Both the position numbers and the translations under genes were made by a program. This document shows positions 41,506-59,201 of a stretch of 64,000 nucleotides of DNA, piece by piece. The stretch covers positions 3,410,001 through 3,474,000 of the forward strand of contig NZ_CP092427.2 of NCBI RefSeq assembly GCF_022374875.2, given 5' to 3'. Every line of letters starts with the position of its first letter. Within the stretch, counting starts at the first letter, position 1. Source of the DNA: Mycolicibacterium rufum. Lineage in GTDB: Bacteria; Actinomycetota; Actinomycetes; Mycobacteriales; Mycobacteriaceae. The notes beneath the pieces are model-generated. The model searched no databases. It saw nothing but the letters and a program-made list of their open reading frames with translations, and was not told the origin of the DNA.

Positions 41506-41530
41506 GCCGCACACTGTCTCACGGTGCCCA

Positions 41531-42310
41531 CTAGAGCGGGTTGAGAATCCTCTGCAGGAACTGCCGGGTGCGCTCGTGCTGCGGATCTCCGATCACCGCG
41601 GCGGGCGGGCCCTGCTCGAGGATCACGCCGGCGTCGGTGAACAGCACCTGGTCGGAAACGCCTCGGGCGAACTGGATCTCGTGGGTGACGATGACCAGGG
41701 TCCAGCCCTCGACGGCCAGGTCGCGGATGACCGCGAGGACCTCGCCGACGAGTTCGGGGTCGAGCGCGGAGGTCGGCTCGTCGAACAGCACCACCTTGGG
41801 TTTCATCGCCAGTGCCCGGGCGATGCCGACGCGCTGCTGCTGGCCGCCGGACAGCTGGAACGGGTACTGGTCGCGCTTGTCGGCCAACCCGACCTGCTCG
41901 AGCAGTTGCGTGGCCTCGGCCTCGGCCTCCTCGCGGGGCCGCTTCTGTGCGACGACCGGGCCCTCGGTGACGTTCTGCAGGACCGTCTTGTGGGGGAACA
42001 GGTTGTGCGACTGGAACACGAAGCCGCTCTGGGCCCGGTAGCGCCGGAGTTGGTCTTTGGTGACGGGGCCGGAGAAGTCGATCTCGACGTCACCGACCGT
42101 GATCACTCCCGCGTCCGGGGTGTCGAGAGCGTTCAGGGCCCGCAGCAGCGTCGTCTTGCCCGAACCCGAGGGCCCGATGATCGTCGTCGCGGACCCGCGT
42201 GGCACGGTGAACGAGACGCCCTTGAGCACCTCGAGCGGGCCGAACGACTTCGTCACGCCCTCGGCGACGATCCGGTTCTCCGTGCGGTTCTGGTCGGGCT
42301 GCTCGGTCAT
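41531..42310 (-). CDS. Polar amino acid ABC transporter ATP-binding protein
   Basis: 259 residues from ATG, overlapping the upstream permease gene by four bases. Walker A GPSGSGKTT (about 47), Q loop FQSHNLFPHKTV, signature LSGGQQQRVGIARAL (about 155), Walker B VVLFDEPTSALDPE and switch His in VTHEIQFA. GlnQ/HisP-type. Works with the fused binding protein-permease encoded directly upstream. Confidence 0.92.
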   Translation of the reverse strand: MTEQPDQNRTENRIVAEGVTKSFGPLEVLKGVSFTVPRGSATTIIGPSGSGKTTLLRALNALDTPDAGVITVGDVEIDFSGPVTKDQLRRYRAQSGFVFQSHNLFPHKTVLQNVTEGPVVAQKRPREEAEAEATQLLEQVGLADKRDQYPFQLSGGQQQRVGIARALAMKPKVVLFDEPTSALDPELVGEVLAVIRDLAVEGWTLVIVTHEIQFARGVSDQVLFTDAGVILEQGPPAAVIGDPQHERTRQFLQRILNPL

Positions 42311-44721: not shown

Positions 44722-45495
44722 TCAGACCGCTCGGCGACCCTGACTCTGCAGCGCGACCGAGGCCTCCGCCACCGACGCGACGCCGATGCCGCGGCCCTGG
44801 GCGGTGACGGCCAGCCGGGTGCGATCGCCGCGGAACAGGTCGCGGGAGAACTCGCACGGGGTGTCGTGCTGGTCGTAGGTGATCCGGGTGATCAGCAGCA
44901 GCGCGGACTTGGGCTTGATGCCCAGCAGGTTCGCTTCCTCGGACGTCGCGTTGACCGCCTCGATGCGTTCGTCGGCGCGGGCCGCGACCAGGCCGTACTG
45001 CGTTTCCAGGATTTCGTAGAGCGACCCGCCGAGTTGCTGCTCGAGCAGACCGGGGAAGGCGTCGGCGGGGAACTGCGCCAGCTCCAGCGAGATCGGCGAT
45101 CCGTCGGCGAGCCGGACGCGCTGGATCTCGATGACGAAGTCGTCGGCCGCGATGCCGAGCGCCTTACAGGTGGTGGCGTCGGGTGCGCCGATCCTGGTCG
45201 ACAGCACCCGGGTTCCGGCCACGTAGCCCTGGCTGGCCAGGAACGCCGGCACCCCGACCACGTCGGTGAGGCTGCGCTGCACCTGCGCATGGCTGATGAA
45301 GATCCCGCCCGAGCGGCCGATCACCCGGTCGACGAGGCCGGCCTCCTCCAGGGCGGCCAGAACCTGGCGCAGGCTCGACCGGCTGGTCCGGTACCGCTCG
45401 GCCAGTTCCCGCTCGCTGCCCAGCTTGGCGCCGGGAACGCCCGCGTTGATGTCGGCCACGATGCGGCGCCGAAGGTCCTCGGTCTGGGTGGCCAC
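44722..45495 (-). CDS. GntR-family (UTRA) regulator of the microcompartment locus
   Basis: 257 residues from GTG with a GGAGG site just upstream. N-terminal GntR winged helix (GSERELAERYRTSRSSLRQVLAALEEAGLVDRVIGRSGGIFI, about residues 26-67). The rest is a UTRA/HutC ligand-binding domain (LEQQLGGSLYEILETQYGLVAARADERIEAV). Last gene of the minus-strand RMM operon. A TTGGT-ACG-ACCAA palindrome lies 22 bases before its start, and the same core recurs at the head of the operon, so autoregulation and control of both arms are likely. The inducer is probably an amino alcohol or its metabolite. Confidence 0.87.
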   Translation of the reverse strand: MATQTEDLRRRIVADINAGVPGAKLGSERELAERYRTSRSSLRQVLAALEEAGLVDRVIGRSGGIFISHAQVQRSLTDVVGVPAFLASQGYVAGTRVLSTRIGAPDATTCKALGIAADDFVIEIQRVRLADGSPISLELAQFPADAFPGLLEQQLGGSLYEILETQYGLVAARADERIEAVNATSEEANLLGIKPKSALLLITRITYDQHDTPCEFSRDLFRGDRTRLAVTAQGRGIGVASVAEASVALQSQGRRAV

Positions 45496-45516
45496 CGCAC
45501 CTCCTCAGCTCATCAA

Positions 45517-45529
45517 TTGGTACGACCAA
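45517..45529. promoter_or_regulatory. Putative GntR operator, 13-bp palindrome
   Basis: TTGGTACGACCAA: five-base arms TTGGT/ACCAA around ACG. It sits between the SDR stop and the GntR start. The inner GGTACGACCA recurs at 52571-52580 in the divergent promoter region. Confidence 0.65.
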
Positions 45530-45547
45530 AACCAGGGTACGTGGCCG

Positions 45548-46327
45548 TCACAGGTCGGCCAGCGCCTCCGCCGATTCGGGCAGGATCTGGCCACCGTCGA
45601 CGATCAGCGATTGGCCGGTGATGTAGGCGGCCTCGTCGGTGGCGAAGAACAGCGCCGCGTTGCCGATGTCGGCGACCGTGCCGAGGGTGCCGGTGGGGAT
45701 CGCCGCCTTCATCTGATCCATGTACTGCTCGCCCATCTCGACGAGCCCCTCGGTGAGGATGTTGCCCGGCAGGACCGCGTTGACGGTGATCTTCTTGCGG
45801 GCCAGTTCGATCGCCGCGGTCCGCAGGAAGCCCAGTTGGGCGGCCTTGCTGGCGCCGTAGTGCGACCAGCCGGGAAAGCCGGTGACGGGCCCGGTGATCG
45901 AGGACGTGATGATGACGCGGCCGTGACCGCTGGCCGTCAGCGGCTCCACGGCGGCCTGCACGATGTAGAAGGTTCCCTTGACGTTCGTGCCCAGGACCTG
46001 GTCGAGATCCTCGGGAGTCATCTCGGCCAGCGACGCCGACGGGAAGATGCCCGCGTTGGCGCACACGATGTCGAGTCCGCCGTGGCGCTCGACCGCGGTG
46101 GCCACCGCGCGGCGGCAGTCCTCGGGGCTGGCCACGTCGGCGGTCACGCCGGTGACGGTGCCGGGCAGCCCCGCGAGGTCCGCGACCGTGCGGTCGATGT
46201 CCGCCCCGGTGCGCCCGGTGATGACGACGTTGACGCCGGCCCGCGCGAAGGTCTCGGCGATCCCGCGCCCGATGCCCTTGCTGCCGCCGGTGACGATGGC
46301 CGAACGGCCCTGCAACGAAGTGAACAT
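45548..46327 (-). CDS. SDR, likely 1-amino-2-propanol/aminoacetone dehydrogenase
   Basis: 259 residues from ATG. Classical [11 protein letters not shown] (residue 13), ANAG (about 92), catalytic Ser in ITSSITG and YGASK (about 156). Within the RMM locus the SDR is reported as an amino-alcohol dehydrogenase interconverting aminoacetone and 1-amino-2-propanol (Rhodococcus and Mycobacterium work, from memory). There is no encapsulation peptide at either end, so it is probably cytosolic. 28 bases downstream of the kinase gene. Confidence 0.85.
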
Positions 46328-46355
46328 AGTGAGGATGGCCCTTTCAGTGCGGAGA

Positions 46356-47354
46356 TCAGGCGGTCAGCGAGTGACCGTCGGAGGACAGGTACCGCTCGGC
46401 AAGTGTGCAGCTGCCCGCGGCGTAGGTGACGGAGATGGCCTGCGATTCCCGGGAATGGCTGTGCGTGCCCATCCAGGCCAGCAGCAGCAGCCGGCGCAGC
46501 AGCACGAACGAGGCCAGCATGTCCTCGTCGGCGGCGGCCAGCTCCCGGCGGGTGCGGTATCCGCTGACCCAGGCGTCCTGCCATTCCGGCACCGACGGAT
46601 GATCCTCGAAGAACGACACCGCTGTTCCGAAATCGTAGAAATACCAACCGAATCCGCAGTCGTCGAAGTCGATCACCGTGATGGTGTCGCCGTCGACCAG
46701 CAGGTTGGCCAGCCGCAGGTCGGCGTGCACCAGGCCGAACGTGTCACTGCCCGTGCCGTATTCGCCGAGGCGGCGGGCCAGCAGCTGCTCGGCGCGGCCC
46801 AGCACGTGGGCTTCGTGCTCACCGACGCCGATCGCGTCGCGCCAGCGTCCCCACCGCGGTGACGCCCCCAGGCTGTGCTCCCAGTCCCAGGCGAACCGGC
46901 TGAACTCCGGCGGGCGCTGCCAGCTGCGGGCGTGGTCGTGCAGCGCGGCGGTGATGCACCCGAGGGTGTGGAAATCCGTGCTCGTGAGCGAGTTCTCGTC
47001 CGGTTCGGCGCCGGGCACCATCTCGAAGTGCACGACATACCGCTCGGTCCCGCCGTGGTCGACGGTGACCACCCGGCGGCCGTCGTGCGCCGGGATCACG
47101 GTCGGCACGGTGATGTCGCTGTCGCGCCGGAGCGCGTCGAGCCACATCAACTCCGATTCGATCTGGTCCACCCGGTGATAGTCCTTGCGGTGCACCCGCA
47201 GGATGGACCGGTGCCCGCAGCCGGGCTCCTCGACGGCGTAGGTGGCGTTCTCGGACAGGTTGAGCAGCCGCAGCGCCGAACCCTGCGGCAGGTCGAACGC
47301 CTCGAGTGCCTTCTCGGCGACCAGTTGGTCGTCACCGAAGTCGCCGTCGCTCAA
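46356..47354 (-). CDS. Amino-alcohol kinase, likely (S)-1-amino-2-propanol kinase
   Basis: 332 residues. APH/choline-kinase fold: [14 protein letters not shown] (nucleotide loop), catalytic [13 protein letters not shown] (about 204) and [16 protein letters not shown] (metal Asp). The orthologous M. smegmatis RMM enzyme was characterised as an (S)-1-amino-2-propanol kinase, as I recall. Its product, the amino alcohol O-phosphate, is the substrate for the phospholyase in this operon. It overlaps the preceding shell gene by four bases. Confidence 0.87.
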
Positions 47355-48004
47355 TGGTCCCGCCCCTCGATCGCCTCCAGCACGCCGGTGATCGCGTCGC
47401 GGGCGGTCGTCACGTCGGCGGTGCTGCCGCTGATGTAGAGACGGCCCGCGGCACCGATCATCTGCACGTCGACCAGCGTCAGCCCCGGTGCGGCGCGTTC
47501 GGCCTCGTTGGCCGCCACTGCCGCGAACAGCGCCGGTGTCATCTCGTACACCAGCAGCGACTGGCCCGGCAGCACCATCGACGCCTGCCGGTTGCGGTTG
47601 AGGATCACCGCGTGCTGGTCGGTGATGTCGGTGATGACGTCGTGGTAGAGCACCCGCGGCCGCAGCTGGTCGGCCGCCGCGTTCTTCGTACCGCTCAGAA
47701 TCGCCTCACCGGCCCGGCGCACGTCGTCGAGATCCCCGGAATGGATCTCGAGCACGCCGAACTGGCGCTCCACGTACAGGATTCCGGGCTGGATGCCCGG
47801 CACCTCCCGCAGCGCCAGGTCGATGACCCGCTCGATCGCCAGCGCCGGGGACACCTCGACGATGAGCGCGTGCTCCCCGGCGTACGGCGGGTAACCCCGT
47901 GCCCGGGTGGGCGTGCCGAGGTAGGCGGCGAACTGCTGCTGCAGGTCCTCGACGAGCAGGTAGACGCGGATGTCGGTCCGTGTCGGTGCGTCCGTGACGG
48001 CCAT
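47351..48004 (-). CDS. Tandem-domain microcompartment shell protein BMC-T (copy 2)
   Basis: 217 residues from ATG. Two BMC domains in one chain: residues 10-105 (LREVPGIQPGILYVERQFGVLEIHSG) and 110-215 (YLLV/VLYHDVITDITDQHAVILNRN, then MVLPGQSLLVYEMTPALFAAVAANEAERA). BMC-T trimers form pseudohexameric shell tiles, often with a larger gated pore for bulky substrates or cofactors. About half identical by eye to the other BMC-T in this operon. Lies between the BMC-H and kinase genes. Confidence 0.88.
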   Translation of the reverse strand: MAVTDAPTRTDIRVYLLVEDLQQQFAAYLGTPTRARGYPPYAGEHALIVEVSPALAIERVIDLALREVPGIQPGILYVERQFGVLEIHSGDLDDVRRAGEAILSGTKNAAADQLRPRVLYHDVITDITDQHAVILNRNRQASMVLPGQSLLVYEMTPALFAAVAANEAERAAPGLTLVDVQMIGAAGRLYISGSTADVTTARDAITGVLEAIEGRDH

Positions 48005-48013
48005 CTCGCGAGA

Positions 48014-48295
48014 CTACTGGGCGGAGACGGAGAAGTGCGCGCCGAGCTCGCTGTGCGGGCGGGGGATCACGTGCACGCTGATGAGTTCCCCGACCTGCGA
48101 AGCGGATTCGGCACCCGCCTCGGTCGCGGCCTTGACGGCGCCGACCTCGCCGGTGACGATGACGGCCACCAGACCGTCACCGACCTGCTGGCGGTCGGTG
48201 ATCGTCACGTTGGCGGCCTTCACCATCGCGTCGGCAGCGGCGAGCGCCGCGACGTATCCTTTGGTCTCGATCATTCCGATCGCGTTGCTGGCCAT
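48014..48295 (-). CDS. Hexameric shell protein BMC-H
   Basis: 93 residues from ATG after an AAGGAG site. Canonical single BMC domain: [26 protein letters not shown], then the pore-lining [24 protein letters not shown] and [11 protein letters not shown]. This should be the major tile of the shell facets. The only BMC-H gene in the operon, so one hexamer type suffices. 61 bases after the BMC-P gene. Confidence 0.95.
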
Positions 48296-48356
48296 GGTTT
48301 CTCCTTGTGTATCGGTGGTGTGTCGGTTCGAACTTCTCGGGCCGGATGCCGGGCGG

Positions 48357-48602
48357 CTAACCGGTGGGGTCGATGGAGCCGATGATCAGCGCGTCGACCG
48401 GTGGCGGGGTGCCGGTGAACCAGCTCGCCGCCACCGAGCCCTGCGTGACCAGGACGTGTTCGCCGACGCCGCTGCCCAGCACGTCGAACGCGACGAGCCG
48501 GGATCCGGAGCCGTCGACCTCTACCTCGAGGAAGGCCCCCGCCGGGAGGCCGTCGATGCGGCGGGTCGACCAGACCTGGCCGACGACGGTGCCACGGATC
48601 AT
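48357..48602 (-). CDS. Pentameric shell vertex protein BMC-P (EutN/CcmL)
   Basis: 81 residues from ATG. A beta-barrel EutN/CcmL protein: [43 protein letters not shown] and [13 protein letters not shown]. Five copies cap each icosahedral vertex. Its start overlaps the stop of the encapsulation-peptide protein gene by four bases. Confidence 0.93.
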
Positions 48603-49087
48603 GTTCGCTCCTTGTGGATCGTCACGCCCAGGGCGCGGGCGCGCTCGCGGGCCAGGGGGGTCAGCACGGCCCGGGGGCCGAGGACCAGGGCAGCGCCGGA
48701 CGCGGCGATGTCGGCGATCTGACGTTCGGTGACCGCGCCGCGCTCGATGCGGCGGCTCGCGCCGGGGCCAGGCCGGTCGGTGCCGGCGAGCCGGAACGAC
48801 AGCCTTCCCTGCCGCAGGTCGGCGCGGGTCTTGGGATTCTCGAACAGCCGCAAGAGATTCCGCACGAACACATCGAGATCCCGGTCGGAGGTGATCCGGA
48901 CCGTGTCGACCCGTGTCCTCTCGTCGGCGGCCAGCGGCCCGGTCGCCACGGGACCCGCCTGCGCCGGCGGAGGGGGAGCGGGCGCAGGGGGGACCGGTGC
49001 GACCGGGCCGGGCCTCGCGAGGTCACCCACGGCCTCGCGGATCACCTCGCGGACCATCTGCCGCAGCGCGTCGCGGTCGATGCTCAC
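48599..49087 (-). CDS. Microcompartment-associated protein with N-terminal encapsulation peptide
   Basis: 162 residues from ATG. Residues 3-24 (DRDALRQMVREVIREAVGD) form an amphipathic helix of the type that targets cargo into microcompartments. A Pro/Ala linker (about 25-52) follows, then a compact domain with TSDRDLDVFVRNLLRLFEN and a terminal ITERQIADIAASGAALVLGP-like module (here VTERQIADIAASGA) found in several BMC-associated proteins. No catalytic motif is recognised. It lies between the BMC-T and BMC-P genes with four-base overlaps on both sides. A core scaffold or adaptor is plausible. Its function is not known to me. Confidence 0.75.
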   Translation of the reverse strand: MSIDRDALRQMVREVIREAVGDLARPGPVAPVPPAPAPPPPAQAGPVATGPLAADERTRVDTVRITSDRDLDVFVRNLLRLFENPKTRADLRQGRLSFRLAGTDRPGPGASRRIERGAVTERQIADIAASGAALVLGPRAVLTPLARERARALGVTIHKERT

Positions 49088-49689
49088 GGCACGCTCCGGG
49101 CCAGTGCTTCCTCGGCCGCGGAGGCGGCCTGGCGGATGTCGGATTCGCTGCCAGACAGGTAGACCCGGCCGGTCGCTCCGATCATCCGGAAGTCGACGAC
49201 CTTGATGTCGGCGGCCTTCTCGGCCTCGTTGGTCGCCAGGATCGCATAGGACGCCGGGGACACCTCGAGCACGTAGAGGGTCTCGCCGGCCAGCACCATC
49301 GACCCGATCTTGTTGCGGTTGATCAGGAACGCGTGCTGGGCGTCGATGCTGGAGATGATGCGCGAGGCCAGGATCTGCGGCGTGGTGGCGGCGCCGGAGT
49401 CCCGGTGGAGTTCGGCCAGCGCGGCGTCGGCGGCGGCCTGCACCGCGTCGGTGTCGCCGTGGAACTCCAGGTAGCCGAACTGGCGCTCGACCACGAGGAC
49501 ACCGGCCTGCACCTGCGCATGCTTGAGCGCGACGTCGGTGATGCCCTCGATGTCCAGACCGGGGGCCACCTCGATGATCTGGGCGGCGACGCCCGCGCGC
49601 GGCAGCGCACCCTTGATCCAGGTGCCCAGATACGACATCGTCTGCGGCTGGAGCCGATCGATGAAGATGAACGAACGCAGTTCAGCCAC
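49084..49689 (-). CDS. Tandem-domain microcompartment shell protein BMC-T (copy 1)
   Basis: 201 residues from GTG. Two BMC domains: residues 1-95 (RLQPQTMSYLGTWIKGALPRAG; GVLVVERQFGYLEFHG) and 105-200 (HAFLINRNKIGSMVLAGETLYVLEVSPASYAILATNEAEKA; GATGRVYLSGSESDIRQAA). Three bases after the aldehyde dehydrogenase stop. Two different BMC-T proteins in one operon allow mixed or stacked pores. Confidence 0.88.
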   Translation of the reverse strand: MAELRSFIFIDRLQPQTMSYLGTWIKGALPRAGVAAQIIEVAPGLDIEGITDVALKHAQVQAGVLVVERQFGYLEFHGDTDAVQAAADAALAELHRDSGAATTPQILASRIISSIDAQHAFLINRNKIGSMVLAGETLYVLEVSPASYAILATNEAEKAADIKVVDFRMIGATGRVYLSGSESDIRQAASAAEEALARSVP

Positions 49690-49692
49690 GAG

Positions 49693-51246
49693 TCACCGCC
49701 TGATCAGTTGTGCGAGTTCTTCGGCCACCAGCGCGCGCAGTTCGGCGCGCAGCGCCTCGATGCCCGGATCGGCGGCGCGGTGGGCGGTGCGCCTGCCGAC
49801 GGGTGCCGGCGGCGCGGTCGCGGAGTCGTTGGACGCCCGCGGGTAGGCGGGTACCGGACCGTCGGGTGAGCGCCACGGTGACAGGCCGGCGAAGTTCGGC
49901 ATCGTCACCCCGGCGTCGGCGTTGTAGGCGATCCTGGTCCAGTTCATCAGGTTCTCGGGCTGCAGGTTCTCGCCGATCGAGCTCCGTCCCACGAAGCCGG
50001 TGCCGACCGTCATCGACGGCGCCAGGTTGGTCTCCAGACCCGAACTGCCGGTGCTGTTGCCGACGTTGACCGACACCCGCAGCACCGGGACGGTGGCCGC
50101 GAATTCGGTGATCACTGCGGCGTCCTCGCTGTGGATGGCCGCCGAGTGCCCGGCGCCCGCGATGCGCACCACCGCGCGGGCGGCGCGGATGCCGCGCCGC
50201 GCGTCGGCGACGGTGGTCATCCCCAGCACCGGGCTGAGCTTCTCGTGCGTCAGGGGCTCCTCACCGACGACGTCGGTGAACGGGGCGACGAGCACCTTGG
50301 TCTTGGGCGTGACGCGCACACCGATGCGCTCGGCGATCCACGCCGCGTCGCGGCCCACGACATCGGTGTTGAGCTGCCCGTCGGGGAACATGAACTCCCG
50401 CAGGCGCTGTGTCGCGTCGGCGTCCAGCAGGTGCGCGCCGTGCCGGGTCAGGGCGGTGGTCAGTTTCGCGGCGATGGCGTCCTCGGCGATCAGCACCGAT
50501 TCGTTGGTGCACAGCACCGAGTTGTCGAACGCCTTGCTGCCGACGATGCGCCGGGCGGCGGCGTCGACGTCGGCGGTCGCGTCGACGAGCACCGGCACGT
50601 TGCCGGGTCCGACGCCCAGGGCCGGGTTTCCCGAGGAGTAGGCGGCGCGCACCACCGCGGTGCCGCCGGTGGCGACGATGACGTCGGTGCGCTCGTCGGA
50701 CATCATCGCCTCGATCAGCGGCAGCGTCGGGTCCTCGATCACCGACACCACACCCTCGGGCGCGCCGGCGGCGACGGCGGCGTCGGCCAGCACCCGAACC
50801 GCGTCGGCCGAGCACTGCCGCGCCCGCGGGTGCGGGGCGACGACGACCGCGTTGCGGGTCATCAGCGCGAGGATCACCTTGAAGTACACGGTGGCAACGG
50901 GATTGGTGGTCGGGCACAGTGCGAGGACGACACCGGCCGGGCGGGGGATCTCGACGATCTTGCGGGCGGTGTCGATCCGCGGCGTCACGAAGTCCTGACC
51001 GCGGTAGAACTCGACGATGCCGCGCGAGCAGGCGCGGTTCTTGACCACCTTGTCCTCGACCACGCCCATCTGCGTCTCGGCGACGGCGGCCGCGGCGAAG
51101 CGTTCGGCATGGCGGTAGCCGGCCTCGGCCACCGCGTCGACGATGCGGGCGACGGACGCCTGGTCGTACTCGCCGTAGGCCGCGGCGGCGAAGTGCGCGC
51201 GTTCGAGCATCTGTCCGGCGTGGGGTATCGCGCTACTGCTGGTCAC
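49693..51246 (-). CDS. Microcompartment aldehyde dehydrogenase (CoA-acylating, PduP/EutE-like) with C-terminal encapsulation peptide
   Basis: 517 residues. Oxidises an aldehyde, probably propionaldehyde, to its CoA ester or acid inside the shell. Catalytic Cys in NSVLCTNESVL (about residue 245), and PRPAGVVLALCPTTNPVATVYFK is typical of EutE/PduP-like enzymes. The last 24 residues, after a Pro/Ala linker, form an amphipathic helix (GIEALRAELRALVAEELAQL), the usual cargo-targeting tag. In PduP and EutE the tag is N-terminal, so C-terminal placement is a feature of this class. Preceded by the aminotransferase gene at two bases. Confidence 0.9.
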   Translation of the reverse strand: MTSSSAIPHAGQMLERAHFAAAAYGEYDQASVARIVDAVAEAGYRHAERFAAAAVAETQMGVVEDKVVKNRACSRGIVEFYRGQDFVTPRIDTARKIVEIPRPAGVVLALCPTTNPVATVYFKVILALMTRNAVVVAPHPRARQCSADAVRVLADAAVAAGAPEGVVSVIEDPTLPLIEAMMSDERTDVIVATGGTAVVRAAYSSGNPALGVGPGNVPVLVDATADVDAAARRIVGSKAFDNSVLCTNESVLIAEDAIAAKLTTALTRHGAHLLDADATQRLREFMFPDGQLNTDVVGRDAAWIAERIGVRVTPKTKVLVAPFTDVVGEEPLTHEKLSPVLGMTTVADARRGIRAARAVVRIAGAGHSAAIHSEDAAVITEFAATVPVLRVSVNVGNSTGSSGLETNLAPSMTVGTGFVGRSSIGENLQPENLMNWTRIAYNADAGVTMPNFAGLSPWRSPDGPVPAYPRASNDSATAPPAPVGRRTAHRAADPGIEALRAELRALVAEELAQLIRR

Positions 51247-51248
51247 TG

Positions 51249-52523
51249 CTATCTCCGTCCGGTCGCGGCCAGCTTCGCCCGCCCCACCGCGACCTCGACG
51301 CGGTCCAGCACGTCCTCGCAGAGGTCACGGTTGAGCAGCAGGCCCGGTTTGAATTGCAGGACACGAGGATCCAGCGTCGAGAAGATCGCCCACACCCCGT
51401 TCTGGTAGAGCTCGCGCATCACGAACTTCGCGCCCTCGGGGTGGTCGAACTCCAAACCGATCACCACCCCGTTCTGGCGGATGCCGACGAACCACTCGGG
51501 GTGGTCGGCCTGGATGCGGGACAGGCCGCGGGCGAAGATGTCGGCGATGTAGTGCACCGACGAGCGGACCTCGGGCCTGCTGGTGATCTCGAGCGTCTTG
51601 ATGGCGGCGACGCAACCGAGCTCGGCGCCGCCGAAGGTGGAGATGTGGCCGAAACCGTCCTGGTCGAGCCACTGCGCGGCGCGATCGCTGAGCAGCGCCG
51701 CCGTGATCGGGTACATCCCGCCCGAGAGTCCCTTGCCGGTGACCATGATGTCGGGTTCGATGCCGTGCTTGGTGATCGCCCACATCTCGCCGGTGCGCAT
51801 CAGGCCGGTCTGTACTTCGTCGGCGATGTAGAGCGCGTCGTAGCGCACGCACAGATCCTTGACCGCCTCGAGGTAACCGATGGGGGGAAGCGGGAATCCG
51901 TAGGTGGCCGGGATCGTCTCCATGATCACCGCCGCGACATCGCGGCCACGCAGCGCCTGCTCCATCGCGTCGGTGTCGCCGAAGGGAACCTGCACGAACT
52001 CGTCGGGCCGGTCGGCCAGGAACAGTTTGGCGAACCGGTCGTCGCCGGTGGCCACGGCCAGGCCGGTGTGCCCGTGGTAGGCCTTGACGATCGAGACGAT
52101 CTTGCGCCGCTGCATGGCGTGGCGGGCGCTCTTGAGCGCGATGTCGATGGCCTCGCCGCCGCCGGACCCGAACGCGACCTTCGTCAGCGACGCGGGGGCG
52201 GACTCGATGAGCTTCTGCGCCAGCGCGGTGCGCGCGACCGAGGGGAAGTGGTGGTTGCCGACGTCGAAGTACTGCATGCCCTCCGAAATCGCCGCCACGA
52301 GTTCGGGATTGCGATGCCCGAGGTTGTAGGTGCCACCGTTGAGATGCATGTCGATCAGCCGGCGACCGCTCATGTCCCACAGGAAGTAGTCCTGCCTGCG
52401 GTCGATCACCAGGTCGACGCCGCTATCGGTCCAGAACTGCGTCTTGTCCGGGTTCCAGTACTCTTTGGCACGTTCGAGCACCTGCGCCTTGGAATCGAAC
52501 GAGAACGTGCCGTAGTCGTACAC
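51249..52523 (-). CDS. Class III aminotransferase-fold phospholyase
   Basis: 424 residues. PLP-dependent fold type I: GSGGGEAIDIALKSARHA (phosphate cup), ADEVQTGLMRTG (Asp to pyridine N) and VTGKGLSGGMYPITAALL with the Schiff-base Lys at about residue 268. In RMM loci this enzyme is thought to remove ammonia and phosphate from 1-amino-2-propanol O-phosphate, giving propionaldehyde. This resembles ethanolamine-phosphate phospholyase, a class III relative. No obvious targeting peptide. First gene of the minus-strand operon. Confidence 0.87.
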   Translation of the reverse strand: MYDYGTFSFDSKAQVLERAKEYWNPDKTQFWTDSGVDLVIDRRQDYFLWDMSGRRLIDMHLNGGTYNLGHRNPELVAAISEGMQYFDVGNHHFPSVARTALAQKLIESAPASLTKVAFGSGGGEAIDIALKSARHAMQRRKIVSIVKAYHGHTGLAVATGDDRFAKLFLADRPDEFVQVPFGDTDAMEQALRGRDVAAVIMETIPATYGFPLPPIGYLEAVKDLCVRYDALYIADEVQTGLMRTGEMWAITKHGIEPDIMVTGKGLSGGMYPITAALLSDRAAQWLDQDGFGHISTFGGAELGCVAAIKTLEITSRPEVRSSVHYIADIFARGLSRIQADHPEWFVGIRQNGVVIGLEFDHPEGAKFVMRELYQNGVWAIFSTLDPRVLQFKPGLLLNRDLCEDVLDRVEVAVGRAKLAATGRR

Positions 52524-52569
52524 GGGACTCCCTAGTCGTGAGCTCGGCCGGGTGTGACCAAAAGCTAAA

Positions 52570-52669
52570 CGGTACGACCATTTATGTCAACAGTGGCCGG
52601 TTGGGTCTTGCGTCATCGAATTGGTAGTGCCAATATGACTGAGGTTTGGCCAGTGTGGTCTAGACCACA
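52570..52669. promoter_or_regulatory. Divergent control region of the microcompartment locus with three palindromes
   Basis: Lies between the aminotransferase (minus) and permease (plus) starts. GGTACGACCA (52571-52580) repeats the core of the site before the GntR gene. ATTGGTAGTGCCAAT (52620-52634) has five-base arms ATTGG/CCAAT. TGTGGTCTAGACCACA (52654-52669) is a perfect 16-bp palindrome 47 bases before the permease ATG. Together they suggest coordinated GntR control of both arms, with the last site possibly for a second factor. Confidence 0.65.
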
Positions 52670-52716
52670 GCGACCGGCCCCCTCGGCTCCGCCCTTCGCC
52701 AGGAAGGTATTCGTCC

Positions 52717-54261
52717 ATGACAGAAGATGTCGTGCCCCGCTCGACCTCCAACAATTCCGTTCAATTGCTCAAGCGAAACGCCGTCGGCACGTTCGGCGTG
52801 ATCTTCATGGCCGTCGCGACGGCCGCACCGATCACCGCGATGGTCGGCAACGTGCCGATCGCGGTCGGCTTCGGCAACGGCGCCCACGCGCCCGCGGGCT
52901 ACCTCGTCGCCACCATCGTGCTGGGGCTGTTCGCGATCGGCTACGCGACGATGGCCAAGCACATCACCTCGACGGGTGCCTTCTACGGCTACATCTCCCA
53001 CGGCCTGGGCCGCGTCATCGGCATGGCCAGCGGGCTGATCATCACGATGGCCTACGTGGTGTTCGAGGGCTCGCTGATCGGCATCTTCGCGTTCTTCTTC
53101 CAGAACCTCTTCGACAGCCAGTTCGGCATCCAGATCCACTGGCTGATCCCGGCCCTGCTGATGCTCGCGCTGAACTGCATCCTCACCTACTTCGACGTCA
53201 ACCTGACCGCCAAGGTGCTGGGCGTCTTCCTGATCACCGAGATCGTCATGCTGTCTCTCGGTGCGCTCGCCGTCGCCGTGAAGGGCGGCGGCCCCGACGG
53301 TTTCGCCGTCGGCCAGATCCTCAACCCGGTCGGCGCGTTCCAGCCCGCCGCGATCGCCGGCGCCAGCGCGGGCCTCGGTCTGTTCTTCGCGTTCTGGTCC
53401 TGGGTCGGCTTCGAGTCCACCGCGATGTACGGCGAGGAGTCCAAGGACCCGAAGAAGATCATCCCGCGCGCCACGATGATCGCGGTGCTCGGCGTCGGCA
53501 TCTTCTACATCTTCGTGTCCTGGATGGCGATCGCGGGCACCGGCCCGCAGAAGTCGATCGAGCTCGCGCAGAGCGCCGACACCAGCTCGGAGATCTTCTT
53601 CGGCCCGGTGCGCAGCACCTACGGCGAGTGGGCCATCACGCTGTTCAACATCCTGCTGGTGACCGGATCGTTCGCCTGCGGCATGGCGTTCCACAATTGC
53701 GCGTCGCGCTACCTGTACGCGATGGGCCGTGAAGGGCTGCACGAAGGCCTGCAGAAGACGCTGGGCGCCACGCACAAGCACCACGGATCGCCGCACATCG
53801 CGTCGTTCGTGCAGACCGGCATCACGCTGGTGCTGATCCTGGCGTTCTTCTTCGCCGGCATGGACCCGTACGTGCACATGTACACGCTGCTGGCGATCCT
53901 CGGCACGATGGCGATCCTGATCGTGCAGTCGCTGTGCGCCTTCTCCGTGGTCGCGTACTTCCACTTCCACAAGAACCACCCGTCGAGCGCGCACTGGTTC
54001 AAGACGTTCCTGGCCCCGCTGCTCGGCGGCATCGGGATGCTCTACGTGGTGTACCTGCTGTGGGAGCACAAGGATGCGGCGGCCGGCGCTGCGTCGGGCA
54101 CTCTGCTGTTCAAGCTGACACCATGGATCGTGGTCGGACTGTTCGCGTTCGGGGCGGCGATGGCGCTGTACTTCAAGTTCAGGGACCCGGGCCGCTACGA
54201 GCTGATCGGCCGGATCGTGTACGAGGACAACGAAGTCCGGGATCAGCAACCCACCAAGTAG
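52717..54261 (+). CDS. APC-superfamily amino acid/amine permease
   Basis: 514 residues from ATG 52717 with AGGAAGG about eight bases upstream. About 12 membrane helices. The start NSVQLLKRNAVGTFGVIFMAVATAAPITAMVGN is typical of APC permeases found with amine-utilisation microcompartments, including ethanolamine-permease relatives. Likely imports aminoacetone, 1-amino-2-propanol or a precursor. First gene of the plus-strand arm; the dehydratase gene follows after nine bases. Confidence 0.9.
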   Translation: MTEDVVPRSTSNNSVQLLKRNAVGTFGVIFMAVATAAPITAMVGNVPIAVGFGNGAHAPAGYLVATIVLGLFAIGYATMAKHITSTGAFYGYISHGLGRVIGMASGLIITMAYVVFEGSLIGIFAFFFQNLFDSQFGIQIHWLIPALLMLALNCILTYFDVNLTAKVLGVFLITEIVMLSLGALAVAVKGGGPDGFAVGQILNPVGAFQPAAIAGASAGLGLFFAFWSWVGFESTAMYGEESKDPKKIIPRATMIAVLGVGIFYIFVSWMAIAGTGPQKSIELAQSADTSSEIFFGPVRSTYGEWAITLFNILLVTGSFACGMAFHNCASRYLYAMGREGLHEGLQKTLGATHKHHGSPHIASFVQTGITLVLILAFFFAGMDPYVHMYTLLAILGTMAILIVQSLCAFSVVAYFHFHKNHPSSAHWFKTFLAPLLGGIGMLYVVYLLWEHKDAAAGAASGTLLFKLTPWIVVGLFAFGAAMALYFKFRDPGRYELIGRIVYEDNEVRDQQPTK

Positions 54262-54270
54262 GAGGCCGTC

Positions 54271-56511
54271 GTGGCAGACGAGTTGGGCCGGTTCCGGGTA
54301 CTGAATTCCAAACCCGTCAACCTCGACGGGTTCAGCGTCCCGGACGCCCGGCTCGGTCTGGTCGCGATGAGCAGCCCCCAGGACCCCTCCCCGTCACTGG
54401 TCATCCGGGACGGGGAGGTCGTCGAGCTCGATGGCAAAGGCGCCAGCGAGTTCGACGTGATCGACGAGTTCATCGCCCGCTACGGCATCGACCTCGCGGT
54501 CGCCGAGGAGGCGATGGCCCTCGACGACGTGACGTTGGCGCGGATGGCCGTGGACATCAACGTCCCGCGGGCCGAGGTGGTGCGGCTGATCGGCGGCACC
54601 ACCCCAGCCAAACTCGCCCGCGTGATCGCGCTGATGTCCCCGGTCGAGATGCAGATGGCGATGGCCAAGATGCGCGCCCGCCGGACCCCCAGCAACCAGG
54701 CGCACGTCACCAACCAGCTCGACGACCCGCTGCTGATCGCCGCGGACGCGGCCAGCGCCGTCGCGTACGGGTTCCGTGAGGTCGAGACCACGGTGCCGGT
54801 GCTCGGCGACGCACCCTCCAACGCGGTCGCCCTGCTGATCGGCTCGCAGGTCGGCACCCCGGGCGCGATGGCCCAGTGCTCGATCGAGGAGGCCCTCGAG
54901 CTGCGGCTGGGCCTGCGTGGGCTGACCAGTTACGCCGAGACCATCTCGATCTACGGCACCGAGCAGGTGTTCGTCGACGGCGACGACACCCCGTTCAGCA
55001 AGGCGATCCTGACGTCGGCCTACGCCTCGCGCGGGCTGAAGATGCGCGTCACCAGCGGCGGCGGTGCCGAGGTGCTGATGGGCGCCGCGGAGGAGTGCTC
55101 GATCCTCTACCTCGAGTCGCGCTGCGTGTCGCTGGCCCGGGCACTCGGGTCCCAGGGGGTGCAGAACGGCGGCATCGACGGGGTCGGCGTGGTGGCCTCG
55201 GTGCCGGAGGGCATGAAGGAACTGCTCGCCGAGAACCTGATGGTCATGATGCGCGATCTCGAGTCGTGCGCGGGCAACGACAACCTGATCTCCGAATCCG
55301 ACATTCGCCGCAGCGCCCACACCCTGCCGGTGCTGCTGGCCGGCGCCGACTTCATCTTCTCGGGGTTCGGGTCGATACCGCGCTACGACAACGCGTTCGC
55401 GCTGTCGAACTTCAACTCCGACGACATGGACGACTTCCTGGTGCTGCAGCGCGACTGGGGCGCCGACGGCGGCCTGCGCACCGTCTCGCCGGAGCATCTC
55501 GAGGCGGTGCGCCGGCGCGCGGCCACCGCCGTGCAGGCCGTCTACCGTGACCTCGGCCTCGCCGACTACGACGACGCGCGGGTCGACGAGGTGGTGGCGG
55601 CCAACGGTTCCCGCGACCTGCCTGCCGGTCACCCCAAGATGGTGGCCGAGGCCGCGGCGTCGATCGAGGCCAAACAGCTCACGGTGTTCGACGTCATCGC
55701 GTCGCTGCACCGCACGGGCTTCACCGATGAGGCCGAGGCCATCACCACGCTGACGCGGGAACGGCTCAAGGGCGATCAGCTGCAGACGTCGGCGATCTTC
55801 GACGAGCAGTTCCGGGTACTCTCCAAGCTCACCGATCCCAACGACTACACCGGTCCGGCAACGGGATACGCGCTGAGCGACGCGCGCCGCACCGAGATCG
55901 ACGCGATCCGGCAGGCGCGCAGCAGCGCCGAGTTGACCGCCGACCAGGAGGAGCACCGCGGTCATCTCGTCGTCACCGACGTCGAACCGGCACGGCAGGG
56001 CAGCGACCCGCGCGAGGTGTGCATCGGGCTGTCGCCGGCCTGGGGTCGCAGCGTCTGGTTGAGCCTGTGCGGTCTGACCATCGGCGAGGTGCTGCGGCAG
56101 ATCTCGGCGGGTCTGGAGGAGGAGGGGTGCGTCGCGCGCACGGTGCGGGTGCGCTCCACCATCGACGTCGGCCTCATCGGCCTGACCGCGGCGCGGCTGT
56201 CCGGGTCTGGTATCGGAATCGGATTGCAGGGCAAGGGCACCGCGCTCATCCACCGGCGTGACCTGGCCCCGCTGGCGAACCTCGAGTTGTTCAGCGTGGC
56301 GCCGCTGCTGACCGCCGCGCAGTACCGCGAACTGGGCAAGAACGCGGCCCGGCACGCGAAGGGAATGGCGCCGGTGCCGATCTTCACCGGCGGCACCGAC
56401 GAGTCGATCTCCGCCCGGTATCACGCGCGCGCCGTCGCCCTGGTGGCACTGGAACGGCAGGCGTGCCAACCCGGCGAAGCCCCGATGACGGTGAAGGTGG
56501 GACGGCCGTGA
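54271..56511 (+). CDS. B12-dependent diol/glycerol dehydratase, fused large and medium subunits
   Basis: 746 residues from GTG 54271. Residues 1-555 or so correspond to the PduC/DhaB catalytic large subunit: FSVPDARLGLVAMSSPQDPSPS, TSGGGAEVLMGAAEE, GSQGVQNGGIDGVG and NFNSDDMDDFLVLQRDWGADGG. Residues 580-746 correspond to the medium subunit PduD: VCIGLSPAWGRSVWLSLCGL, GLQGKGTALIHRRDL. The enzyme uses adenosylcobalamin radical chemistry to turn 1,2-propanediol into propionaldehyde, or glycerol into 3-hydroxypropionaldehyde. The medium part lacks the N-terminal extension that targets Salmonella PduD into its compartment. Neighbours are the permease, small subunit and reactivase. Confidence 0.92.
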   Translation: MADELGRFRVLNSKPVNLDGFSVPDARLGLVAMSSPQDPSPSLVIRDGEVVELDGKGASEFDVIDEFIARYGIDLAVAEEAMALDDVTLARMAVDINVPRAEVVRLIGGTTPAKLARVIALMSPVEMQMAMAKMRARRTPSNQAHVTNQLDDPLLIAADAASAVAYGFREVETTVPVLGDAPSNAVALLIGSQVGTPGAMAQCSIEEALELRLGLRGLTSYAETISIYGTEQVFVDGDDTPFSKAILTSAYASRGLKMRVTSGGGAEVLMGAAEECSILYLESRCVSLARALGSQGVQNGGIDGVGVVASVPEGMKELLAENLMVMMRDLESCAGNDNLISESDIRRSAHTLPVLLAGADFIFSGFGSIPRYDNAFALSNFNSDDMDDFLVLQRDWGADGGLRTVSPEHLEAVRRRAATAVQAVYRDLGLADYDDARVDEVVAANGSRDLPAGHPKMVAEAAASIEAKQLTVFDVIASLHRTGFTDEAEAITTLTRERLKGDQLQTSAIFDEQFRVLSKLTDPNDYTGPATGYALSDARRTEIDAIRQARSSAELTADQEEHRGHLVVTDVEPARQGSDPREVCIGLSPAWGRSVWLSLCGLTIGEVLRQISAGLEEEGCVARTVRVRSTIDVGLIGLTAARLSGSGIGIGLQGKGTALIHRRDLAPLANLELFSVAPLLTAAQYRELGKNAARHAKGMAPVPIFTGGTDESISARYHARAVALVALERQACQPGEAPMTVKVGRP

Positions 56512-56837
56512 ACGAGATCACCGTGGGCAACGCCGTCGACGGCAAGCTCGGACTGGCCGATCTACGGATGGACCCGGCCGCGCTGGATCAGCAGGCGGCC
56601 GTCGCCGAGCGGGGCGGCAACCCGCAGCTCGCCGAGAACTTCCGGCGTGCAGCAGAACTCGCGGTGATCGACGACGAAGAGGTGATGGCCCTCTACGAGG
56701 CGCTGCGCCCCTACCGGTCGACGGCCGCGGAGCTGGAGCAGCTGCGCGCCTCGCTGCTCGACCGCGGCGCGCCGCGCTGCGCGGCGCTGGTGGAGCAGGC
56801 CGCCGCCGCCTACGCCCGCCGCGGCCTGCTGCGTTGA
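56508..56837 (+). CDS. Diol/glycerol dehydratase small subunit
   Basis: 109 residues from GTG 56508, overlapping the large-subunit gene by four bases. Matches the conserved core of PduE/DhaB3: LGLADLRMDPAALDQQAAVAERGGNPQLAENFRRAAELAVI and the final LRPYRSTAAELEQLRASL. Salmonella PduE is about 173 residues; this one lacks the long N-terminal part, again removing a possible targeting or solubility segment. Completes the dehydratase heterodimer. Confidence 0.9.
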   Translation: MNEITVGNAVDGKLGLADLRMDPAALDQQAAVAERGGNPQLAENFRRAAELAVIDDEEVMALYEALRPYRSTAAELEQLRASLLDRGAPRCAALVEQAAAAYARRGLLR

Positions 56838-58534
56838 GCCGCACGGTCGCCGGTATCGACGTCGGCAACCACACCACCGAGATCCTGCTGGCACGGGTGG
56901 ACGACGGCGTCGTCGAGGCCGTCGCCCATGGGCAGGCGCCCACCCGCGGACGCAAGGGCAGCACGGAGTCGCTGCACGGAGCGGCCGTGCTGTTGCACCG
57001 GATCGAGGTCGACGCCGGGGTGCGCGCCGACGATTTGCTGCTGTCGGCGCTACGGCCCGTGGACACCGCAACAGCGCCCATTCCGCCGGCGTACTCGCCG
57101 TCGTCCCCGGTGCGCAGCCTGCGTCGGCCGGATGCCAGCACCCCGGCGGGCGCGGGGCACGGTGTCGGACGGCACGTGCGTCTCGCGGACCTGGATGATG
57201 CGCCGGCCGAGGGTCCCGTCGTCGTGTCCGTCGACGCGGTCACCGACTTCGAAGTGGCGGCGCGGGAGATCAGCGGGGCGGTCGAACGCGGATGGCGGAT
57301 CGTCGGGGTGATCGCAGCCCAGGACGATGCGGTGTTGATCCGCAACCGGATTCCGATCGACGTGCCCGTGGTCGACGAGGCCGAGGTGGACGGGCTCGCC
57401 CCGGGCGCGCTGATCGCGGTGGAAGTGGTCGAGGAGGGCCGGGCCTACCGCGCGCTGGCCGATCCGATCGCGCTGTCGGCGGCGCTGCGGCTGCCCGTCG
57501 AGAGTCTGCGCGAGGTCGCCGACTTCTGTCGTGAGCTGGCCGATTCGGCGGCGATCGCGGTGACGCCCCGCACCGGGGCGGTCGCATCGCCCGACCCCGA
57601 CGGCGACCACGTCGACGTCCGCTCCGGCAGCGGCACCGTGCGGTACACGCCTGCGCAGGCGCACGCGGTGCTGCGCCGCTCGGCGCCGGGAGTCGTCGAA
57701 CACGTTCGGCTGCAAGCGGTTCCGACCGCGGCGCAGGGGCTGGCGGTGCACGACGCGTTCTTCACGAACCTGGCGTCGATCGACAGCGGGGCGTGGCTGC
57801 GGCGCGGTGTCGCCGACGCGCAGGGCACGGTCGTCGCGCTGCTGGCCGCCGAGGAGGCCGCCGACGCGGCGGACACGTTGAGTGCGCTGACCGGCCGTCC
57901 CGCGCGCACGCTGAGCTCCGAACCCCGGGCCGCGGCGTGGGGTGCCCGCACCACGCCGGGCTTTCCGCCGGGCGCGATGGTGTGCGACATCGGCGGCGGC
58001 ACTGTCGATCTGATCGGCGAGGAGCAGACCGTGGTGGCCGCGGGGGCGGGGGAGTCCATCACCGTCGCGATCGCCCGTGTGCTCGGCATCCCGCACGCCC
58101 TGGCCGAGGCGGTGAAACGCACCCCGGCGGTGCGGGTGGAGGGGCCGCACGTCGCGCACGAGGAGGACGGACGCCGGGTGTTCCTCAACGCGCCCGCGCC
58201 GTCGGAGGCGATCGGCCGGTTGTGTACGCGCGGCAGCGCGGGGCTGGTGCCGTTCTCCCACCGGCTGGCCGCCGAGGAGTGGCGCAGCCTGCGGCTGGCG
58301 ATCAAGCAGGAGACCGTCGCCGCGAACATCGCGCGGTGCCTGACCGCGTTCGACGAACCACCGACGGCTCTGGTGCTGGCCGGCGGTGGCGCGCTGGACG
58401 ACGAGTTGATGCGTACGGTGTCCGAGGCGCTGCGTCCGCTGCGGGTGGTGGTGGGACGCGCCGACATCGACGGGGTGCACGGTCCGCGGTTCGCGGTGGC
58501 CCGCGGCCTGGTCGCTATGTTCGCGCAGCAGTAG
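56834..58534 (+). CDS. Diol dehydratase reactivase large subunit (DdrA/PduG-like)
   Basis: 566 residues from TTG, overlapping the small-subunit gene by four bases. ASKHA ATPase-like: AGIDVGNHTTEILLAR at the start (phosphate 1 region), VCDIGGGTVDLI (phosphate 2, about 390) and LVLAGGGALDDELM (about 515). Exchanges damaged cobalamin from the inactivated dehydratase at the cost of ATP. Family members are about 605-610 residues, so this is slightly short. No gene for the small reactivase subunit (DdrB/PduH) is seen here. Confidence 0.9.
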   Translation: MSRTVAGIDVGNHTTEILLARVDDGVVEAVAHGQAPTRGRKGSTESLHGAAVLLHRIEVDAGVRADDLLLSALRPVDTATAPIPPAYSPSSPVRSLRRPDASTPAGAGHGVGRHVRLADLDDAPAEGPVVVSVDAVTDFEVAAREISGAVERGWRIVGVIAAQDDAVLIRNRIPIDVPVVDEAEVDGLAPGALIAVEVVEEGRAYRALADPIALSAALRLPVESLREVADFCRELADSAAIAVTPRTGAVASPDPDGDHVDVRSGSGTVRYTPAQAHAVLRRSAPGVVEHVRLQAVPTAAQGLAVHDAFFTNLASIDSGAWLRRGVADAQGTVVALLAAEEAADAADTLSALTGRPARTLSSEPRAAAWGARTTPGFPPGAMVCDIGGGTVDLIGEEQTVVAAGAGESITVAIARVLGIPHALAEAVKRTPAVRVEGPHVAHEEDGRRVFLNAPAPSEAIGRLCTRGSAGLVPFSHRLAAEEWRSLRLAIKQETVAANIARCLTAFDEPPTALVLAGGGALDDELMRTVSEALRPLRVVVGRADIDGVHGPRFAVARGLVAMFAQQ

Positions 58535-59156
58535 GCAGGCCCGCGATGGCGTGCGCGATGTGGCCGCGCCAGTGGCCGGGCTCGACGCGGTGCACCGCCT
58601 CGCCGTGGAAGGCGCTGGAGATCACCACATCCGGGGACAGCTCGGCGAGGGTGCGCAGACTCTCGGCGATCGTCGCGGCGTCCGCAGGAGTGTGGAAGCT
58701 CTCGATGTAGCCGGCGCGCCAGTGCCCCTCGATGCGAAACAGTGTGTCGCCGGTGAACAGGTACCGGCCCTCGGCGCCGGGCACCAGGTAGCACACGCTT
58801 CCCGGGGAATGGCCCGGCGTCGGGATGATCTCGATGCCGTTGGCGTCGGTGTAGCGCCCCGTCACCGGGACGTCGACGTGGTGGTGCCTGCTGACGTCGG
58901 CGACGTCCCCGGCCGGCGCGTGCAGCGTCGACCCGAACCGCGCGGCGATGCGCGCGAGCATCGGGCCCGCCTCGTCGCGATGGCTGAGGTACTGGTGGGA
59001 GACCCCGCCGAGCGTGTCGAGCGTGTCGAAGTCGGCGTCGGTGGCCGGCGAGTAGAACAGGACGCCGGCCGGCGTCCAGAGATAGGCGTGGGTGGTCAGG
59101 CCCGGAAAGGGTGAGTCGGTGCGGGTTTCGTGGAGATCGCTCAGTACCTGTTTCAT
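58515..59156 (-). CDS. MBL-fold metallo-hydrolase with degenerate first zinc motif
   Basis: 213 residues from ATG (MKQVLSDLHETR). Metallo-beta-lactamase fold shown by TPGHSPGSVCYLV (third motif His, about 115), FTGDTLF (Asp, about 138) and FHGEAVH (final His). In place of HxHxDH the chain has YLSHRDEAGP, so zinc binding must differ or be weak. This HRDE subfamily is known but little studied. It is convergent with the reactivase gene, sharing 20 bases at the 3' ends. Confidence 0.78.
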   Translation of the reverse strand: MKQVLSDLHETRTDSPFPGLTTHAYLWTPAGVLFYSPATDADFDTLDTLGGVSHQYLSHRDEAGPMLARIAARFGSTLHAPAGDVADVSRHHHVDVPVTGRYTDANGIEIIPTPGHSPGSVCYLVPGAEGRYLFTGDTLFRIEGHWRAGYIESFHTPADAATIAESLRTLAELSPDVVISSAFHGEAVHRVEPGHWRGHIAHAIAGLPTAART

Positions 59157-59201
59157 GTGCCCAGGCTGCAACCTCAACGATGCTTGAGGTCAAGACCCCC
59201 C

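Follow-up and report, generated by a model that had tools for sequence, protein, structure and literature searches.

An RMM2-type microcompartment locus in Mycolicibacterium rufum, and shell-less siblings that suggest repeated loss of its shell

The window analysed here, a stretch of 64,000 nucleotides from Mycolicibacterium rufum (contig NZ_CP092427.2, positions 3,410,001 to 3,474,000), contains a Rhodococcus/Mycobacterium microcompartment (RMM) locus joined to a divergent B12 diol dehydratase; by gene content it is an RMM2-type microcompartment locus. Comparison with related loci suggests that the shell at this chromosomal site was lost repeatedly while the enzymes, including the B12 dehydratase, stayed. 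Scans of the window's open reading frames (ORFs) with Pfam and other profiles recovered, each in its place, all the genes named in an earlier sequence-only reading of this DNA, that is, a complete RMM set on the minus strand and, divergent from it, a permease, the dehydratase and its reactivase. The shell set comprises BMC-H, BMC-P and two BMC-T (one of them by position and likeness only), the enzyme set comprises a short-chain dehydrogenase/reductase (SDR), an APH kinase, a class-III aminotransferase, an aldehyde dehydrogenase (AldDH), the permease and a GntR regulator, and the diol dehydratase genes adjoin them on the opposite strand, as RMM2 requires.

The minus arm runs in the order phospholyase, AldDH, BMC-T, a protein of 162 amino acids (162-aa protein), BMC-P, BMC-H, BMC-T, APH kinase, SDR and GntR. 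The first gene (51249..52523, minus strand like all in this arm) encodes a class-III pyridoxal phosphate-dependent aminotransferase/phospholyase with the shell-tied residues S321, Y325 and E403 described below. It is followed by a CoA-acylating-type AldDH (49693..51246; NF010378 4.5e-133 and TIGR02518 7.9e-116, both scores under the curated cut-offs), whose C-terminal tail, judged by eye, reads like an encapsulation peptide, and by a BMC-T shell protein of the MSM0275 type (49084..49689; PF00936 1.9e-11), which matches the solved RMM shell proteins MSM0275 (5l39, 9.5e-104) and MSM0271 (5suh). Beyond the 162-aa protein (48599..49087) lie the BMC-P vertex protein (48357..48602; PF03319 2.3e-19), the BMC-H shell protein (48014..48295; PF00936 9.9e-27) and the other BMC-T shell protein (47351..48004), which has no Pfam family match at E ≤ 0.001 and was assigned by its position and its likeness to the first BMC-T. 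The arm ends with an APH-family kinase of the (S)-1-amino-2-propanol kinase type (46356..47354; best solved match 6ef6, 3.5e-144), an SDR of the 1-amino-2-propanol dehydrogenase type (45548..46327; best solved match 6ci8, 4.5e-130) and the GntR/UTRA regulator (44722..45495; Pfam UTRA 1.4e-43, GntR 8.6e-10), the proposed controller of both arms. We take 6ci8 and 6ef6 to be the RMM enzymes of M. smegmatis.

The 162-aa protein, which the sequence-only reading does not list and which is a candidate core scaffold, perhaps PduM-like, consists of an N-terminal helix (xELRALVREVVREAV), a Pro-rich linker and a small alpha/beta part. In its structural model, which is of low confidence (mean predicted local distance difference test, pLDDT, of 64.9), the helix spans residues 5-21, and the N-terminus looks like an encapsulation peptide. 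PF15953 (PduM) was found weakly in 7 of 26 members (best E 0.04) and did not match the window's own copy, and the PduM link is only a lead; a fold search with the protein returned nothing at E ≤ 0.001.

On the plus strand, an amino-acid/amine permease (52717..54261; PF13520 1.8e-27) is followed after 9 bases, counted from its stop to the next start, by the B12 diol dehydratase, whose large and medium subunits are fused in one ORF (54271..56511; PF02286 4.4e-237, PF02288 1.3e-29). The small subunit (56508..56837; PF02287 1.6e-31 for the ORF 56463-56837) probably starts at the GTG at 56508, overlapping the stop of the preceding dehydratase ORF, and is followed by the large subunit of the dehydratase reactivase (56834..58534; PF08841 2.5e-65, PF18427 3.6e-27). 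Within the locus, to which the search was confined, no gene for a small reactivase subunit of the PduH type was seen adjoining it. Operator-like palindromes lie upstream of GntR (TTGGTACGACCAA, 45517..45529) and in the divergent region (TTGGTAGTGCCAA, 52621..52633); a second operator-like site, GGTACGACC (52571..52579), follows closely on the TTGACA of what is presumed to be the promoter of the phospholyase, and TGTGGTCTAGACCACA (52654..52669) is a CRP/GlxR-like palindrome.

In the passages of Axen et al. (2014, PMC4207490) available here, RMM1 and RMM2 are told apart by the absence and presence of diol dehydratase genes, and both types are used in the available part of Sutter et al. (2021, PMC8217296). 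Among 198 genomes of the GTDB genus, BMC-P was found in 38 and the dehydratase large subunit in 60. The loci mapped from them fall into an RMM2 class (14 genomes, in one of which the locus is split across two contigs), loci with a shell and no adjacent dehydratase (24 genomes, including one divergent RMM-like locus, L021) and a shell-less class (14 mapped loci plus one fragmented genome, L092/L093). When RMM gene order is compared across relatives, as the sequence-only reading had proposed, the arrangement thus recurs and is therefore not due to chance. L021 (genome G056) has shell proteins 58-77%, a phospholyase 66% and a kinase 42% alike, with neither SDR nor permease mapped at the locus.

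A kinase scan of named genomes gave 58 loci, and deduplication by kinase sequence resulted in 84 loci, one of them a lone kinase, leaving 83 arm loci, among which seven incomplete ones were re-labelled by hand. These comprise 20 loci with shell and dehydratase, 36 with shell only, two with a shell and the dehydratase unseen, 23 shell-less loci with dehydratase, one with neither (L108) and one whose shell state is unseen (L152). Accordingly, 24 of the 82 loci of known shell state are shell-less, and the dehydratase is kept in 23 of these 24, including L116, whose dehydratase is on another contig with adjacency unseen. Because the shell-less set within the 198 genomes was first found via the dehydratase, which could bias it, the same genomes were also searched with the kinase (at least 60% identity); this added only the lone kinases of G028, G166 and G175 and a second copy in G012. 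The three lone kinases were not accepted as shell-less loci, as no arm genes were mapped beside them. L152 was likewise rejected, its contig beginning inside the kinase; it was counted as shell-less in the GntR+SDR+kinase tree, where it sits beside the shell-less L121 and adds no change, and in the multi-residue-type column test, and as shell-bearing in the simpler column test (kinase, SDR and GntR only). A rule by which each arm has either shell or dehydratase fails at L108 (Mycobacterium sp. NAZ190054), which has neither beside the arm and whose genome yielded a single dehydratase, of another type. Presence and absence within one species was also discarded, the two compared 'M. iranicum' records of different state being only 75-86% alike in DNA.

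In the shell-less loci, the kinase directly follows the phospholyase wherever both are on one contig, without the six genes that stand between them in RMM2 (AldDH, BMC-T, 162-aa protein, BMC-P, BMC-H and BMC-T). gluQ follows GntR as in the window, and the transporter genes are present too where the contig reaches. Among the 198 genomes, the 15 with a shell-less locus gave no BMC-P match (G008 and G070 being only 70-73% complete), and the 11 named shell-less genomes searched gave no BMC domain. The RMM-type AldDH is absent from all 14 shell-less genomes searched, 12 of which gave no match and two of which gave 38-39% matches that resemble ones also present in shell-bearing genomes. PF09290, a different family of acylating aldehyde dehydrogenases, is present in 13 of these 14 genomes, so that the aldehyde has another possible exit. 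At three of 22 junctions searched (L120, L116 and L113), a stretch at the phospholyase end matches BMC-T (E 1.3e-8, 9.5e-7 and a weak 5.8e-4), in each case at about residues 164-190 of the kinase-adjoining BMC-T; at the remaining 19, BMC-T was not the best hit. These remnants argue for loss from a shell-bearing ancestor, and, judging by gene content, one pathway appears to operate in related bacteria both with the organelle and without it. Related species thus provide natural pairs, one member with the shell and one without, in a shared gene neighbourhood; with them the long-standing question of what is gained by enclosing an aldehyde pathway, and of which enzymes must be inside, becomes testable. 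To our knowledge, shell-less RMM siblings have not been reported in print, within a limited literature search that does not establish their absence from it.

Adjoining the RMM2 locus in the window (40144-43788, minus strand) are genes for a flavin amine oxidase (PF01593), an ABC ATPase and an amino-acid-type binding protein and permease. These neighbours recur beside many RMM2 and shell-less loci and may belong to amine catabolism. At L047 and L052, in genomes with the shell locus elsewhere, the amine oxidase and transporter genes of the RMM2 site are found close to a solo dehydratase, as though the amino-alcohol arm had relocated and left it behind.

The history of the shell differs between genes. 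On a tree of GntR, SDR and kinase (83 rows), shell state changes eight times, at least five of which are forced by starred branches, whereas dehydratase state changes twice; on a tree of gluQ, GntR and SDR from the 45 loci at this site, shell state again changes eight times, and a single shell-less clade is rejected (p 8e-8). On the phospholyase tree it changes once (80 rows, and again with 41 rows). One change against eight indicates that the phospholyase tends to segregate with the shell, most likely because alleles were exchanged by recombination. All six mixed-shell groupings that follow the flanking genes (flank-gene support from 47/83 to 100/100) are rejected by the phospholyase data (p 0.022 to 5e-46), and phospholyase segments, even without the marked columns, need one or two shell changes each. 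Between L101 and L098, phospholyase DNA is 84% identical, compared with 88-91% for the substrate-binding protein, gluQ, GntR, SDR, permease and dehydratase, the kinase and reactivase also being at 84%. On a tree of AldDH and shell proteins (56 rows), separating gluQ-site from RMM1 loci takes three label changes rather than one, so the cassettes of the gluQ site are not one clean clade.

The same phospholyase pattern could have arisen without recombination, by convergence or relaxed selection after several independent deletions. This would fit the third codon positions of the phospholyase, which need four changes rather than one (elsewhere, third positions need eight for GntR+SDR, six for the permease and seven for the N-terminal half of the kinase), and the replacement of Y325 by seven different residues in shell-less rows, as expected of relaxation. 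It is harder to reconcile with the low counts of the phospholyase segments, the rejection of all six mixed groupings tested and the lower phospholyase identity between L101 and L098, and we regard it as a possible but doubtful account.

The phospholyase also stood out in a column test for residues that are invariant with the shell and lost without it. S321, Y325 and E403 are present in 55 of 55 rows with shell and in seven, none and two, respectively, of the 22 without. Kinase, SDR, GntR and permease have no column that is invariant with the shell and scattered without it (residue-type test), and in the simpler test these four, the dehydratase large+medium and small subunits and gluQ have no column lost in more than 50% of shell-less rows. 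At a 30% mark, five columns are found in the phospholyase, three in the permease, two each in dehydratase and gluQ, and one each in GntR and the small subunit; the reactivase has six columns at the 50% mark, a value that is not comparable as it rests on only seven shell-bearing rows. Two control splits by locus type yielded no column with at least five residue types in the five genes tested, and two kinase columns and one GntR column lost with fewer types. In the structural model of the phospholyase (mean pLDDT 65.8), whose fold matches class-III aminotransferases and the human O-phosphoethanolamine phospho-lyase, helix 317-340 carries S321 and Y325, and helix 399-421 carries E403. These are specific residues to examine for cargo docking in RMM compartments.

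The palindrome TTGGN5CCAA occurs twice in the window against 0.31 expected (3 of 100 shuffles reach two copies) and six times in the 6.1-Mb genome, where a reversed control pattern occurs 38 times. It is found at both promoters in all locus classes, its strict form standing between permease and phospholyase in 69 of 72 loci (missing in L148, L125 and L069) and before GntR in 74 of 82, where seven of the eight misses are shell-less loci. A pattern related to GGTACGACC is present in 55 of the 72 loci, and a looser TGTGGN6CCACA-like palindrome in 61 of the 72 divergent regions; the TGTGGTCTAGACCACA type is expected 0.07 times in the window, and 6 of 100 shuffles have one. From this we infer that both arms may be jointly controlled by GntR through a shared operator-like palindrome. 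Because one palindrome marks both promoters, separate regulation of the arms, named in the sequence-only reading as an outcome that would speak against it, finds no support, with GntR binding as yet a prediction.

Dehydratases of the window's type also occur apart from the arm, namely elsewhere in the genome in 15 of the 24 sampled genomes whose shell locus lacks an adjacent dehydratase. Of 20 unlinked copies, the strict palindrome precedes the start of four by 53-65 bases. A one-letter variant stands at 53-54 bases in another four from the same clade; such variants are weak by themselves, as 203 of 4000 random stretches of 400 bases contain one. The remaining 12, including all five from RMM-less genomes, have neither form. 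Their neighbours lack a clear link to the pathway: nine of the ten neighbour families scanned matched Pfam (transpeptidase, lipoprotein, wax-ester synthase, PE-PPE, hydrolase, deaminase, porin, glycosyltransferase and DUF2237), and the tenth had no Pfam match. Such solo operons agree with the reading preferred in the available passages of Axen et al. (2014, PMC4207490), in which the dehydratase genes, placed on the opposite strand, are a functionally separate neighbour unused by the microcompartment, as do the 36 arm loci with a shell and no adjacent dehydratase. Against it stand the palindrome at both promoters, its strict form before four unlinked copies and the change of dehydratase state on the arm tree only twice against eight times for the shell, and we consider this reading unlikely.

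The catalytic residues of the dehydratase (Q141, H143, E170, E221, Q296, D335 and S362, in what we take to be K. oxytoca numbering) are kept in 82 of 82 rows, to which some genomes contribute two. The positions of Ser301 and Gln336 (presumably Klebsiella numbering), which we assume to lie in the substrate pocket facing the third carbon of the substrate, hold Asp and Asn in 74 of 74 window-type rows, Ser and Gln in all three canonical rows, and Asp with Ser or Thr in all five rows of a third type. An acid in the pocket could hold an amine, which would fit the amine permease and the amino-alcohol regulator. PduD and PduE carry encapsulation peptides; by this standard none was seen by eye on the medium or small subunit of the window's dehydratase. 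Fusion of the large and medium subunits leaves no free medium-subunit N-terminus, and the small subunit, about 109 amino acids from its probable start, shows no N-terminal targeting helix.

These results bear on the proposal of the sequence-only reading that one AldDH within the shell serves both arms, the dehydratase, as cargo or closely coupled, supplying propionaldehyde from 1,2-propanediol. The shared palindrome, the divergent promoter and the 9 bases between permease and dehydratase agree with such coupling; a bifunctional microcompartment is offered as an alternative in the available part of Axen et al. (2014, PMC4207490), and an RMM2 in Paracoccus yeei TT13, said in the passages at hand to grow on 1,2-propanediol (PMC8156839), favours propanediol chemistry. 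Retention of the dehydratase in nearly all shell-less loci, from whose genomes the RMM-type AldDH is missing, the apparent lack of an encapsulation peptide and of shell-tied residues in the simpler test, and the two altered pocket positions weaken the proposal, which we now judge improbable, leaving the earlier interpretation partly supported overall.

We favour, with moderate confidence, an RMM2 locus whose shell encloses phospholyase and AldDH, with the dehydratase co-regulated but cytosolic and the shell block dispensable. GntR, relieved by an amino alcohol, would open the two divergent operons; the permease would import the substrate, and in the cytosol SDR and kinase would process 1-amino-2-propanol. 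Anchored to shell or core via a patch on its two C-terminal helices (S321/Y325 and E403), the phospholyase would release propionaldehyde inside the shell for conversion by AldDH to propionyl-CoA, with the 162-aa protein as putative core scaffold. The dehydratase would belong to the same response and work outside the shell. Shell and AldDH would form a dispensable block, repeatedly lost and possibly regained, at one chromosomal site, by recombination with a matching phospholyase allele. The pathway chemistry is taken as background. More tentative is a fuller version, in which homologous recombination between related species moves the block of shell and acylating AldDH together with its own phospholyase allele, descent is vertical for kinase, SDR, GntR, permease and dehydratase, S321, Y325 and E403 form a docking site, and the acidic-pocket dehydratase takes an amine-bearing diol instead of propanediol. 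If true, mycobacteria swap an organelle on and off at one site.

Besides the third codon positions, several points count against this explanation. The branch dividing the phospholyase by shell state is weak (66/88), and the six tested groupings were picked after the trees were seen. A reverse pattern is found at phospholyase A331 and A335, on the helix of S321 and Y325, and at kinase G222; the phospholyase model is of moderate confidence, making the two-helix patch a candidate, and no encapsulation peptide is evident on the phospholyase. Special contacts may not be needed to package kinase, SDR or dehydratase. Of the 23 shell-less loci with dehydratase, 7 lack the strict palindrome before GntR, and GntR binding and induction are predictions only.

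A 220-aa ORF (58515-59177, minus strand) has a metallo-beta-lactamase-fold match (PF00753, E 1.8e-6); orf187 (58551-59114, plus strand), to which it is antisense, is probably not a gene.

Among known systems, the PDU metabolosome has a B12 diol dehydratase with reactivase, an AldDH and a shell in common with the window, which differs in its fused large and medium subunits, the replacement of Ser301 and Gln336 and the lack of an encapsulation peptide at the equivalents of PduD and PduE; profile scans detected nothing PduL- or PduQ-like among the locus proteins covered. The RMM1/AAUM locus of M. smegmatis and Rhodococcus shares GntR, SDR, kinase, shell, AldDH, phospholyase, permease and palindrome with the window and, unlike it, has no adjacent dehydratase; gluQ and transporter genes adjoin RMM2 loci and were not seen beside RMM1 among the mapped loci. 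A search of plasmids for the Paracoccus RMM2 locus gave, among the 30 of 62 records listed, a 40% kinase in P. versutus as the Paracoccus match. Closest is RMM2 itself, with the same kinds of genes, an opposite-strand dehydratase and permease-to-GntR synteny with RMM1, from which, on the available passages of Axen et al. (2014, PMC4207490), we can name no difference in gene content; the combination, of whose description the sequence-only reading was unaware, was named there, and its novelty falls accordingly. The locus is thus known in kind, and what is new here are the siblings without a shell, the palindromes common to both arms, the phospholyase residues tied to the shell and the changed substrate pocket of the dehydratase.

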